NCBI RefSeq assembly: GCF_022842145.1
Contig: NZ_JALHQD010000001.1
Span: forward strand, 192,127 to 256,126
Length of the DNA: 64,000 bases
Direction of reading: 5' to 3'
Origin: Tabrizicola sp.
GTDB taxonomy: Bacteria > Pseudomonadota > Alphaproteobacteria > Rhodobacterales > Rhodobacteraceae
The notes beneath the pieces were generated by a model that saw nothing but the letters and a program-made list of their open reading frames with translations, made no database searches and was not told the origin of the DNA. The position numbers and the translations under genes are program-made. Below, piece after piece: positions 16,078-42,804 of this stretch. Position 1 is the stretch's first letter; the number at the start of each line of letters is the position of its first letter.

Positions 16078-16970
16078 TCCTGACCCGCGCCCTGCTGCTG
16101 TCCCTTCTTCTTGCGGCCCCGGTTCAGGCCGAGAAGCTTGCCAACAGGCTGTTCGGTGCGATGGCCGCGCCCTCGGCGCAGGATTCGATGCCGATCGGCA
16201 GCTACGCCCGGGGCTGTGCGGCAGGGATGGTGGAGTTGCCAGAGACCGGGCCGACCTGGCAGGCGATGCGGCTGTCGCGAAACCGCAACTTCGGCCAGCC
16301 GCAGATGGTGCAGTTCCTGATGGACCTGTCGGCCACCGCCCGCGACATCGGCTTTGGCCGCGGTCTCTACATCGGTGACATCAGCCAGCCGCGCGGCGGG
16401 CCGATGACCAGCGGGCACGCCAGCCACCAGATCGGCCTGGACGCCGACATCTGGATGCTGCCCCCGCGCCGCCTGGACCTGAGCGCGGCGGAGCGTGAGG
16501 AGATCAGCAGCATCCCCGTGCGGTCCGCCGACCAGCGTTCGGTGACGGAAAACTGGACCCGCACGCATCGTGAGTTGCTGAAGCAGGCGGCAAGCGATCC
16601 GCGCGTGGACCGGATCTTCGTCGCGGCGGCGGTCAAGATCGAGATGTGCCGGACCGCCAAGCGTTCGGACAAGAAATGGCTCCAGAAGATCCGCCCCGTC
16701 GCGGGCCATGAGACGCATTTCCACGTCCGCCTGAAATGCCCCAAGGGCGCGCGGCTGTGCGAAACTCAAAGCCCCACGGTGGACGCGCTGTCCAAGGGCG
16801 GCGACGGCTGTGACGAGACGTTGATGTGGTGGGTGACCGACTACCTGGACCCACCGAAGTCCGACGGCAAGAAGCCCCGCGACGAGGATGCGCCCAGGAA
16901 GAAGGGCCCGCGCGAGTTCACGATGGCCGACCTGCCGCGGCAGTGCAAAGGCGTGCTTGCCGCAGATTGA
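16074..16970 (+). CDS. mepA: Penicillin-insensitive murein endopeptidase
   Basis: A 298-residue periplasmic LAS-type zinc peptidase that cuts D-Ala-mesoDAP cross-links in peptidoglycan. A signal peptide occupies residues 1-19 (MILTRALLLSLLLAAPVQA). Metal-binding residues appear in GHASHQIGLDADIW (His and Asp) and GHETHFHVRLKCP (His). Conserved cysteines (GCAAGM, MCRTAK, LKCP, LCETQ) probably form disulfides. The length is close to the usual 270-310. The start overlaps the transporter stop by four bases. The C-terminal 30 residues are a charged extension (KKPRDEDAPRKKGPRE) beyond the catalytic domain. Confidence 0.95.
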   Translation: MILTRALLLSLLLAAPVQAEKLANRLFGAMAAPSAQDSMPIGSYARGCAAGMVELPETGPTWQAMRLSRNRNFGQPQMVQFLMDLSATARDIGFGRGLYIGDISQPRGGPMTSGHASHQIGLDADIWMLPPRRLDLSAAEREEISSIPVRSADQRSVTENWTRTHRELLKQAASDPRVDRIFVAAAVKIEMCRTAKRSDKKWLQKIRPVAGHETHFHVRLKCPKGARLCETQSPTVDALSKGGDGCDETLMWWVTDYLDPPKSDGKKPRDEDAPRKKGPREFTMADLPRQCKGVLAAD

Positions 16971-17053
16971 CAGGGGACGGCCGCGGGTATAGTTCGCCTC
17001 CGCCCTCATGGTGGGGGCCAAGTCTCCGCGACCTTGTCAAAACGGAAAGCAAC

Positions 17054-17674
17054 ATGCGCATCCTTCTTCCTGGCGTCATCGCCATGGCGGCCATTGTCGT
17101 CGCCTCGAACATCCTGGTCCAATACCCCTTGGGCACCTTCCTGACCTGGGGGGCGCTGACCTATCCCTTCGCTTTTCTTGTGACCGATCTGGTGAACCGG
17201 CTGGAGGGTCCCGCCGCTGCCCGCCGCGTCGTATTCGCGGGTTTTGCGACCGGCATCCTGTGTTCCTTCATCGGCACCCAGATCATGGGCGAGTTCGGCC
17301 CCCTCGTCACGCTTCGCATCGCGCTGGGGTCGGGCATCGCCTTTCTCTGCGCGCAGCTTTTGGACATTTCGGTCTTCAACCGCCTGCGGCAGGGCAGCTG
17401 GTGGAAAGCGCCGCTGGTATCGACCCTGGTGTCCTCCACCCTCGACACCGCGATCTTCTTCACCGTCGCCTTTTCGGCTGCATTGACGGTGCTGGAGCCG
17501 GGCAATGACGTCTCCTGGGCGACTGCGCCGATGCCGCTTCTGGGCCTTGGCCCCGAGGCGCCGTTCTGGGTCTCGCTTGCGGTCGGGGACTGGCTTGTGA
17601 AGCTTTTGCTGGCTTTGGTGGCACTGGTGCCTTTCAGAATGGCAATTGCCAAGCTCACCGCAAGGGTAGCGTAA
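17054..17674 (+). CDS. Queuosine precursor transporter (VUT/YhhQ family)
   Basis: A 206-residue membrane protein with about six hydrophobic segments. It matches the VUT_1/YhhQ family, which imports preQ0/preQ1 for queuosine tRNA modification. Family-typical features are the start ILLPGVIAMAAIVVASNILVQYP, the cytoplasmic TDLVNRLEGP motif and the polar SSTLDTAIFF helix. The ATG at 17054 follows GGAAAGCAAC; the frame extends upstream but without a plausible start. The 83-base leader contains small stems but no recognisable preQ1 aptamer. It may be read through from mepA. Confidence 0.88.
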   Translation: MRILLPGVIAMAAIVVASNILVQYPLGTFLTWGALTYPFAFLVTDLVNRLEGPAAARRVVFAGFATGILCSFIGTQIMGEFGPLVTLRIALGSGIAFLCAQLLDISVFNRLRQGSWWKAPLVSTLVSSTLDTAIFFTVAFSAALTVLEPGNDVSWATAPMPLLGLGPEAPFWVSLAVGDWLVKLLLALVALVPFRMAIAKLTARVA

Positions 17675-17680
17675 TTTGTT

Positions 17681-17745
17681 TTGACAAACACAAAATCTGT
17701 GTCACCTTTTCCTTATCGGCAACCATTTTGAAAGGAGGTGATCCA
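17681..17745 (+). promoter_or_regulatory. Putative promoter region and extended Shine-Dalgarno
   Basis: A perfect TTGACA at 17681-17686 stands in an AT-rich stretch, and an ACACA-N5-TGTGT dyad overlaps it. I cannot see a good -10 at standard spacing. At 17729-17745 the 17 bases GAAAGGAGGTGATCCAG (running one base into the GTG) match the exact complement of the 16S rRNA 3' tail, far longer than any normal ribosome-binding site. Confidence 0.45.
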
Positions 17746-17802
17746 GTGTCTAGAGTGATATTGGAGAGAGGTGTCGGGACAGTCGGGAGGGGTATTTTCT
17801 AA
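17746..17802 (+). CDS. Possible 18-codon small ORF within a structured transcript
   Basis: GTG at 17746 lies seven bases after AGGAGG and opens an 18-codon frame (VSRVILERGVGTVGRGIF) ending in TAA at 17800. Its stop codon lies inside a hairpin at 17791-17825 (ATTTTC pairs with GAAAAT, AAGGG with CCCTT). A 13-bp rho-independent terminator ends the unit at about 17908. The peptide resembles nothing I recognise. The unit could be a leader peptide, a small protein gene or a regulatory RNA that binds the 16S tail. It stands alone: the upstream gene ends at 17674 and no downstream gene shares its strand before the terminator. Confidence 0.4.
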   Translation: MSRVILERGVGTVGRGIF

Positions 17803-17825
17803 GGGCAGCCCCTTGAAAATAGACC
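17791..17825 (+). other. RNA hairpin overlapping the small ORF stop
   Basis: GGT-ATTTTC-T-AAGGG-CAGC-CCCTT-GAAAAT-AG-ACC folds into a stem of about 11-14 base pairs with a small apical loop, and the TAA at 17800-17802 lies in its left arm. There is no T-run after it, so it looks like a structural or regulatory element rather than the transcript end. Confidence 0.5.
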
Positions 17826-17873
17826 ACCGATTGGATTTGGATGCCCTAACTGGCCCATCTCCTTGGATCTCGG

Positions 17874-17908
17874 AAAGGGTTGCCTGACCAGGCAACCCTT
17901 TCTCTTTT
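17874..17908 (+). terminator. Strong rho-independent terminator
   Basis: AAAGGGTTGCCTG (17874-17886) pairs perfectly with CAGGCAACCCTTT (17889-17901) and is followed by CTCTTTT. The 13-bp stem with a T-rich tail is the clearest intrinsic terminator in the window. It closes the small plus-strand unit and also separates it from the opposing GDPD remnant. Confidence 0.88.
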
Positions 17909-17937
17909 GGTGCGGCCGTTCCGACGTGTCTGGACAG

Positions 17938-18318
17938 TCAGCGCATCTCTGTGACGACGCTCTCGCAGCCGTCAGGTTCGGGGTCGTCACCCAGATCGGA
18001 AGCCACAAGTTCGTCAGAGTAAAGGCCGGCCGCTCCCATGGCGAAAAAGCAGGCCGCATCGGCCCTTTCGTTCACCGTGTGGACATAAAGCGGAATGTCC
18101 AACTCCGGGCTTAGCGCGGCAAGCAGCCCCGATCGCGCCATGTCGACAGGCATCGCGATGGCCGCGGGCTGATGCGCCTTTGCTTCCCGGCGGATGACCT
18201 CGCCATCACTCCCGAAAGCATACAGCGTCCAGATGACCTCGGGATAGCCAAGCGCACGAAGCTGGGTGATCTCTTGCGGTTGATAGGCTTGCGGGACGAA
18301 GCGTGGCACTTGGATCCG
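17938..18318 (-). pseudogene. Truncated glycerophosphodiester phosphodiesterase-like remnant (3' part)
   Basis: About 127 residues match the C-terminal half of GDPD-type TIM barrels: PRFVPQAYQPQEITQLRALGY, the strand VIWTLYAFGSDGE, then LDIPLYVHTVNERADA and GAAGLYSDELVASDL. The N-terminal half with the catalytic His-Glu-Asp residues is absent. The frame continues upstream to a codon at 18438, but that part is unlike the family and no alternative frame carries the missing half. It is therefore probably a decayed gene whose 5' part was lost when the arfB neighbourhood was rearranged. Expression as a short non-enzymatic protein cannot be excluded. Confidence 0.6.
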
Positions 18319-18467
18319 TCCGGCGATGTGCCTGGACTGGCGTTGGCAGAAGGGACGCGGAGATATCTTCGGACAACCCGGCGGGGACGTCATGGCGTGC
18401 CGTCGCGTGGACAGCTTTGCAATCGCCAACCCTTTCACTTTTGCCCCGGCCCGAATAGCTTTGCCGC

Positions 18468-18890
18468 ATGCTTCAAGTCACCGAAAACCTCTCCATCGCC
18501 GATTGGGAACTGTCCGAAAGCTTCATGCGGGCATCGGGTCCCGGCGGGCAAAACGTCAACAAGGTCTCGACCGCCGTCGAATTGCGGTTCGAGGCGGAGC
18601 GCTCGCCGCACCTGACGCCCGGCGTGAAGGTACGACTGAAGAAGCTGGCAGGGCGACGCTGGACCACGGAAGGTGCCATCGTCATCCAGGTCGAAGACAC
18701 CCGCAGCCAGGCGCAAAACCGCGAAATCGCGCGCGAGCGGCTGGTCGAGCTGATCCGTGCGGCCCTGGTCACCCCAAAGCGCCGGATTGCGACCAAGCCC
18801 ACGCTGGGGAGCCAACGCCGCCGCATTGCGGCCAAGACCCAGCGTGGCGAGGTAAAGTCGCTGCGCGGCAAAGTGGGGGATGAAGAGTGA
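18468..18890 (+). CDS. arfB: Alternative ribosome-rescue factor ArfB (peptidyl-tRNA hydrolase)
   Basis: A 140-residue protein of the YaeJ/ArfB group, which releases nascent chains from ribosomes stalled without a stop codon. The catalytic GGQ is at residues 26-28 in GPGGQNVNK. The basic C-terminal tail (PKRRIATKPTLGSQRRRIAAKTQRG) is the kind that threads into the empty mRNA channel. Length and start fit the family. Its stop overlaps the GTG start of the next gene (GTGA), so the two are translationally coupled. Confidence 0.95.
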   Translation: MLQVTENLSIADWELSESFMRASGPGGQNVNKVSTAVELRFEAERSPHLTPGVKVRLKKLAGRRWTTEGAIVIQVEDTRSQAQNREIARERLVELIRAALVTPKRRIATKPTLGSQRRRIAAKTQRGEVKSLRGKVGDEE

Positions 18891-37705: not shown

Positions 37706-37782
37706 GGCTAGGTAGCTCAGCTGGTTAGAGCACGCGACTCATAATCGCGGGGTCGGGGGTTCGAGTCCCCCCCTCGCCACCA
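37706..37782 (+). tRNA. tRNA with anticodon CAT (probably elongator tRNA-Met)
   Basis: A complete 77-base cloverleaf including the encoded CCA. Acceptor GGCTAGG/CCTCGCC, D stem GCTC/GAGC with loop AGCTGGTTA, anticodon stem CGCGA/TCGCG with loop CTCATAA, and T arm GGGGG-TTCGAGT-CCCCC. Discriminator base A and lack of initiator features argue for elongator Met. tRNA-Ile2 (CAT with lysidine) is the alternative but usually has a different acceptor stem. Position 4 (T) faces C69, a mismatch in the acceptor stem. Confidence 0.93.
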
Positions 37783-42490: not shown

Positions 42491-42562
42491 GCTGACGGGA
42501 CCTGGCGGAACAGGGTCGTTTTCGATCTTGAACCGTCCGGAATTCCGGCGCAGACAGAGGGG

Positions 42563-42760
42563 GATGGTTCCCGGCCAAACCACGCGCGGCCGGGTGAAAA
42601 GGGAACGGGGTGAGGTGTAGGCAACAGCCGCCGAATCCCCGACTGCCCCCGCAACTGTAAGCGGCGAGCGACCCCTCTCATGCCACTGGTCTGCCGTTCG
42701 AACGGCGGGCCGGGAAGGCAAGGGGAAGCGGCGACCCGCGAAGTCAGGAGACCTGCCATC
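42563..42760 (+). ncRNA. Cobalamin riboswitch (AdoCbl class)
   Basis: Conserved pieces occur in the right order: GATGGTTCCC with its partner GGGAACGGGGTGA, then CTGCCCCCGCAACTGTAAGCGG, GCCACTGG, GGGAAGGC, and the B12 box AAGTCAGGAGACCTGCC at 42741-42757. A GC-rich stem follows (about 42773-42791), just ahead of the GGAAGGAG of the first gene. It could hide that site when cobalamin is bound. It should repress the downstream uptake and synthesis genes when the vitamin is abundant. Confidence 0.96.
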
Positions 42761-42804
42761 GAAAATGTAACCCACCGGGCGGGGTGCCCCGGAAGGAGAT
42801 TTCG

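Follow-up and report, generated by a model that had tools for sequence, protein, structure and literature searches.

A candidate rreR-type mini-mRNA of Tabrizicola with an extended Shine-Dalgarno sequence and a predicted cis-acting lock

The window analysed here (the whole 64,000-nucleotide stretch of a Tabrizicola sp. contig) holds a small unit in which a long complement to the 3′ tail of 16S rRNA runs directly into a short reading frame. The best reading of this unit, judged from its predicted folds, is an RNA tuned to 30S subunits: with a probability of roughly 60%, we take it to be a mini-mRNA whose Shine-Dalgarno (SD) sequence would be locked in cis and opened by the whole 16S tail, the RNA acting as a reader of, or sink for, free 30S subunits. 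We read the unit as its genus's rreR-type member of an alphaproteobacterial mini-mRNA family, related to the Rfam family RF01867 (CC2171).

A free-standing unit with a 17-base 16S complement

The extended SD, GAAAGGAGGTGATCCAG, matches the complement of the alphaproteobacterial 16S 3′ tail over 17 bases with 0 mismatches, and its last G doubles as the first base of the GTG start. The tail used for comparison, GCGGCTGGATCACCTCCTTTCTAAGGA, is the 16S 3′ end of two alphaproteobacteria and an exact 17-base complement of GAAAGGAGGTGATCCAG; it comes from genomes other than the window's own (a 16S search of seven genomes found the gene in one, with no match in the window's own genome). The rreB/rreR feature of at least 16 nt of 16S complementarity directly 5′ of a small ORF is present here at 17 nt. 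Sites like GAAAGGAGGTGATCCAG with up to three mismatches number one in the 64-kb window, against 0.17 expected from shuffles (one or more such sites turned up in 15 of 100), and the core AAAGGAGGTGAT has a single occurrence in the 4.33-Mb genome.

Table 1. Positions of the unit's features and of the flanking genes in the window.
Feature	Position	Strand	Basis or remark
Vut_1 / YhhQ-like transporter	17054..17674	+	Pfam PF02592
TTGACA, -35-like	17681..17686	+	followed by ACACAAAATCTGTG
Extended SD, 17 nt against 16S 3′ tail	17730..17746	+	mismatch scan, 16S ends
Helix P1, 5′ strand AAGGAGGUG (the SD)	17732..17740	+	predicted fold, RNAalifold consensus
Hairpin P2, start codon inside	17742..17765	+	predicted fold, RNAalifold consensus
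GTG-started 18-codon ORF MSRVILERGVGTVGRGIF, stop TAA	17746..17802	+	ORF reading, relatives
Hairpin with stop codon inside, loop CAGC	17793..17821	+	predicted fold
Helix P1, 3′ strand CAUCUCCUU (cis anti-SD, 7 nt before terminator)	17856..17864	+	predicted fold, RNAalifold consensus
Intrinsic terminator, 14 pairs by scan	17872..17903	+	fold and terminator scan
RF-1 domain protein, ribosome rescue, ArfB-like	18468..18890	+	Pfam PF00472

The unit sits outside the neighbouring genes, between the end of the Vut_1 transporter gene and a minus-strand ORF (17938-18438), and is AT-richer than its surroundings (GC is 47% for 17600-17799 and 58% for 17800-17999, while the eight remaining 200-base segments of 16800-18799 range from 59.5 to 67.5%). 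In these respects the original prediction was right, as it was on the 17-base complement, the GTG-started 18-codon frame and a predicted hairpin swallowing the stop codon. Its terminator is present, with 14 pairs by scan where 13 bp had been given. Its upstream promoter is only half supported, because the TTGACA is perfect but a consensus scan paired no -10 with it at 16-18 nt. The sequence behind TTGACA, ACACAAAATCTGTG, is kept across the 30 aligned genus copies (own included) except for one substitution, in L028. A regulon defined by the promoter motif CACAAAATCTGTG was rejected, the genome holding only one exact and one one-mismatch site.

The transcript, predicted to be about 185 nt long, has a predicted fold of -83.6 kcal/mol against a dinucleotide-shuffle mean of -61.6 (z -5.0; reached by 0 of 200 shuffles). 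We rejected an rRNA fragment as the source of the match, which ends at the start codon with no 16S sequence beyond it. A repeat or mobile element was also rejected on the basis of one exact-pattern copy per positive genome, with the caveat that 6 of 85 RF01867-positive class genomes have a second or third match to that family.

Relatives of the unit are widespread. A 281-base query matched 30 of the 31 other genomes of the genus at 86-97% identity (38 of 61 genomes overall), confirming the homologues outside the strain that had been looked for; the one genus genome that lacks a match (G018) is 70% complete. The extended SD is unchanged in 29 of 30 aligned genus copies, with one substitution in L026. 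Counting the window's own genome, 74 of the 149 genomes from the family and 50 of the 385 from the class carry a single copy of the exact pattern AAAGGAGGTGATCCRNTG, and the reversed control pattern has 0 matches in the same genomes. Scanning named genomes with a pattern gave at least 117 stretches. Titles among the matches listed are alphaproteobacterial or just "Proteobacteria/Pseudomonadota", bar a Gemmatimonadetes MAG, a Nitrospinota MAG and a SAR92 genome (contigs of L076, L180 and L156, the last continuing into tRNA-like sequence).

These searches yielded 181 elements, 117 of which (L069-L185) came from a search pattern with R and TGTC fixed, so that these bases are imposed there. Groups (Rhodo, Sphingo, MSHC, MSSD/E) are labels given by peptide start; the Rhodo label, here Rhodobacterales-type, required at most 20 residues, and L034 was added to it by hand. 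Terminators were detected in 163 of the 181 elements, and 155 were folded. AAAGG is preceded by G in 171 of 181; one base further out, the complement would be A, which stands there in 16 of 181, so the 16S pairing ends at ...UUUC.

The small reading frame and its neighbours

Start codons across the 181 elements are GTG (101), ATG (75) and TTG (5). The second codon is TCN in 177, having been imposed by the search pattern in 117; a pattern without this constraint gave 30 loci, 27 of them with TCN. All 55 Rhodobacterales-type loci (54 plus L034) have an ORF of 18 codons, in keeping with the frame conservation proposed as a check. At codon 19 the 43 distinct Rhodobacterales-type ORFs use TAA (16), TAG (14) and TGA (13) and never TGG, for which about 4 cases would be expected under independent change (a naive P of 0.0019 that ignores kinship); the same test is uninformative for the MSHGS group (0.5 expected, P 0.52).

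A frame kept at one length, with three stop codons in use and no TGG, is what an 18-residue functional micropeptide would produce if it were the product, made from a strong ribosome-binding site, and the invariant residues E7 and G11, with V10 and T12 in 42 of 43 distinct ORFs, point the same way. We nevertheless consider such a peptide unlikely. Peptides outside the Rhodobacterales-type group are unrelated to it, and at 118 of 126 loci their length is 14 to 31 residues; ORF entropies of 11.35, 9.57 and 10.40 bits at codon positions 1, 2 and 3 give no third-position excess of change, and for the MSHGS group the third position is the least variable. The "heavily translated" micropeptide of the original prediction is doubtful because the fold is predicted to hide both SD and start codon and because translation of the published relative rreB is reportedly weak. 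The reading frame seems to be kept, and the peptide sequence itself is not clearly the target of selection. In three loci (L042, L143 and L056, L143 being titled Azospirillum) the extended SD stands before longer ORFs of 56-59 codons, whose products resemble small secreted proteins.

Gene order around the element (Vut_1 transporter, element, arfB; 17054-18890 in the window) is kept in many Rhodobacterales-type loci. The transporter lies upstream in 53 of 55. The RF-1 domain protein downstream, which we take to be ArfB, shares the element's strand at 43 of 55 loci, and at 38 it lies no more than 330 bases from the SD; 12 of 55 have no arfB in the sequence examined, two of them with fewer than 300 bases downstream. 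In the flanks examined at the other 126 loci, Vut_1 has no match and arfB appears once, on the opposite strand. The minus-strand ORF, of 166 codons, has no Pfam match and, among the 181 loci, occurs only in the window's own genome.

This proximity would suit a leader-attenuator of arfB, and a link between ribosome stress and a ribosome-rescue gene would make sense; even so, we regard attenuation, which had also been suggested at the outset, as very unlikely and rejected it. The layout of a cis leader-attenuator, with a terminator between the ORF and a gene on the same transcript, is absent: the terminator comes first, the minus-strand ORF follows, and arfB begins 564 bases past the terminator in the window. 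At 22 of 43 loci a -10-like TANNNT is present no more than 20 bases from the arfB start (base-shuffled segments gave 3.5 on average and 8 at most), and SD-like 4-mers are present at 2 of 43, so that arfB often looks separately transcribed and may be leaderless in Rhodobacterales-type loci. The terminator and the spread of genomic contexts, with arfB at a single locus outside this group, likewise disfavour attenuation.

Predicted locked and open forms

Of the 55 Rhodobacterales-type elements, 35 entered the fold alignment (every one of the 25 from outside the genus, and 10 of the 30 from inside). The RNAalifold consensus consists of two helices, P1 and P2, a short hairpin behind the stop codon and the terminator; in P1, GGAGGUG pairs with a CAUCUCC-type segment just 5′ of the terminator, and P2 holds the start codon. 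P1 and P2 are paired in 97.7% of cells, against 38.8-58.6% when the strands are slid, and among 500 shuffles their covariation score was reached by 7 and their paired percentage by 26. Two-sided change is limited to 1 of their 525 cells, and with the 3′ letters shuffled, pairing is nearly as frequent (97.5%). P1 has 25 cells with a one-sided change that keeps the pair and 6 that are unpaired; it cannot show compensatory change because the SD strand is invariant in the 35 aligned sequences. Of the compensatory changes named as support in the original prediction, two-sided changes that keep pairs occur in the terminator among relatives, and two-sided changes also occur in the short post-stop stem; P1 and P2 have only that one cell.

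A duplex test, in which the SD and ORF start were to pair with the pre-terminator segment more strongly than shuffles, failed: at most 5 of 100 shuffles were as good for 2 of 53 Rhodobacterales-type, 0 of 29 Sphingo, 1 of 34 MSHC and 1 of 21 MSSD/E elements. (The terminator of L083 was misdetected; it was corrected by hand in the 35-sequence alignment and left uncorrected in the duplex and opening-cost tests.)

The cost of opening the 17-nt site was computed from minimum-energy folds of the 155 elements, with 40 shuffles of the middle part for 39 of them. In the window it is predicted at 14.9 kcal/mol, which 0 of 40 shuffles reach; the full 16S duplex is worth -31.0 kcal/mol and GGAGG alone -8.7. 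Rhodobacterales-type elements have a median of 14.6 kcal/mol (range 4.5-18.2; 53 elements, 30 of one genus), Bradyrhizobium-type 9.6 (7), unlabelled elements 5.9 (13), Sphingo 4.3 (27), MSHC 4.3 (34) and MSSD/E 4.0 (21). In the shuffle control all eight Rhodobacterales-type elements lie above their shuffle mean, two of them above all 40 shuffles and the other six reached by 3-11 of 40; six of seven Bradyrhizobium-type elements exceed the mean and one every shuffle. At the opposite end, 6 of 8 Sphingo, 5 of 8 MSHC and 4 of 8 MSSD/E elements (15 of 24) open at a cost that is matched or exceeded in at least 39 of 40 shuffles. On these modelled folds the family seems to come in two forms, open and locked, and the lock cannot be a family-wide mechanism because the SD is predicted to be open in three other peptide groups.

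RNAalifold gave no long-range stem for MSHC (34) or MSSD/E (21), only the terminator and local hairpins. For Sphingo (MSHGS) it gave a ten-pair long-range stem from the ORF start to the pre-terminator region, formed in 26 or 27 of 27 sequences per pair, with no two-sided changes. In the seven Bradyrhizobium-type elements (L113, L123, L127, L130, L149, L170 and L175) an in-ORF UCACCUC is the predicted pairing partner of the SD; six of the seven also have a same-score tRNA gene within about 300 bases.

The mechanism that we propose for the mini-mRNA is as follows. The transcript would fold on itself and end at its own terminator, the cis anti-SD just before that terminator hiding the SD in P1 and P2 holding the start codon. 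Against a lock of about 15 kcal/mol, the roughly -9 kcal/mol of an ordinary SD contact would not suffice, whereas the 17-bp pairing with 16S (about -31 kcal/mol) could strand-invade through P1 and P2. Subunits would load when free and the 18-residue peptide would be made poorly; if 30S loads only by way of the whole 16S tail, the RNA would read or bind free 30S and so serve as reader or sink and not as a normal message. The analysis itself shows the family relation, the conservation, the length and stop of the ORF, the terminator and the folds as predictions; from the folds and energies we infer that the lock operates, that 30S subunits open it and that the cell uses it. Should it work as proposed, it would make a simple test case for control of 30S loading by over-long SD pairing, and might even be a naturally occurring gauge of free ribosomes. 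A broader and decidedly tentative version, which we would not favour at present, has a class-wide free-30S reader built in two opposite ways: an always-open 17-nt bait in several lineages, and a lock in Rhodobacterales and, more weakly, Bradyrhizobium, opened only by a complete 16S tail and so also checking that the 16S 3′ end is whole.

Relation to CC2171 and to the rreB/rreR small mRNAs

At gathering level Rfam returned nothing at the element (elsewhere in the window it places a cobalamin riboswitch at 42548-42774 and a tRNA gene at 37706-37779). In an E-value threshold search, RF01867 aligns from 1 to 159 of its 159 positions to 17720-17899, with 32.7 bits and an E-value of 1.6e-5. The original prediction had named a match to a known Rfam family as a point against itself; such a match exists over the full length, but at 32.7 bits it falls below the cut-off of 75, and for this reason we call the element related to RF01867 and do not file it as a member. 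Further searches at E up to 0.1 found RF01867 in 34 of 36 loci (18/20, 8/8 and 8/8 by batch), 7 of the 36 being over the cut-off (4, 2 and 1). Of 385 class genomes the family matches 85, in 13 cases above the cut-off and in six cases more than once, and 47 of the 50 pattern-positive class genomes are also RF01867-positive (a count from two lists). One genome, G048, has two matches, the stronger (68.9 bits) lying elsewhere than its exact-pattern copy. Of 14 control genomes only Caulobacter vibrioides has a match; a phylum sample has RF01867 in 86 of 398 genomes, all 86 in Alphaproteobacteria, the class make-up of the other genomes not being shown.

The likeness to RF01867 runs from end to end, the model consensus beginning cAAcaAucGAAAGGAGGUGAUCCAGUGUC and finishing in a terminator. 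The difference is in the long-range stem, which in the model begins downstream of the start codon (AUuGuC with GaCaAU) and reaches the pre-terminator region. That stem is absent from the window's predicted fold, where the pre-terminator segment pairs with the SD itself. Rfam files CC2171 as an sRNA, and the end-to-end match and strong own fold would also suit a trans-acting base-pairing sRNA in which the ORF is incidental. We find this improbable, more so than the micropeptide, given that conservation is highest in the 16S complement and its start codon, that the second codon is TCN in 27 of the 30 loci found without imposing it, and that ORF length and stop are kept.

In the literature, RF01867 is among the R-scape-improved families of Rfam 15, with one extra covarying pair (PMC11701678), and a match to it, MH_s33, is among the predicted sRNAs of a Mesorhizobium study (PMC5596092). 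Ribosome profiling in Caulobacter found two previously predicted ncRNAs to be translated, whose names are absent from the passage concerned (PMC4117421). A term search of the text available from PMC10117765, PMC5082802 and PMC4842269 gave nothing on this small mRNA gene. The original prediction knew of no described system of this shape; besides RF01867, a "small mRNA with an extended Shine-Dalgarno sequence" had been published in 2017 (Hahn et al, 2017, RNA Biol 14:1353). Among the papers listed by our literature searches, none was found that equates CC2171 with rreB/rreR.

In the 2017 work rreB reportedly encodes 14 residues in Bradyrhizobiaceae and rreR 18 residues in Rhodobacter/Roseobacter; co-sedimentation with 30S subunits and weak translation are also reported, the latter for rreB, and a cis anti-SD lock is not known to be described there. 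The window's unit shares their reported form, a free-standing small mRNA with an SD of about 17 nt against the 16S tail and a GTG start, and it shares with rreR the 18-residue ORF and the Rhodobacter/Roseobacter lineage, as do the Rhodobacterales-type loci at large (54 plus L034). A 14-residue ORF ending CHLAGIAR, of the length reported for rreB, occurs in seven loci (six titled Bradyrhizobium, one Bradyrhizobiaceae). One difference is that 30S binding and weak translation are reported for the published RNAs, whereas the window's element is described from its sequence. The rnTrpL/peTrpL leader-peptide attenuators resemble it in having a short ORF followed by a terminator; this family differs from them in lacking a cis-conserved downstream gene and in conserving the SD, not codon content. 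The unit is not a new kind of system but an unlisted member, with a predicted lock, of a known kind, whose window form the Rfam cut-off misses. The Rfam sRNA CC2171 and the rreB/rreR small mRNAs, two differently named records, appear to be one family across Alphaproteobacteria.
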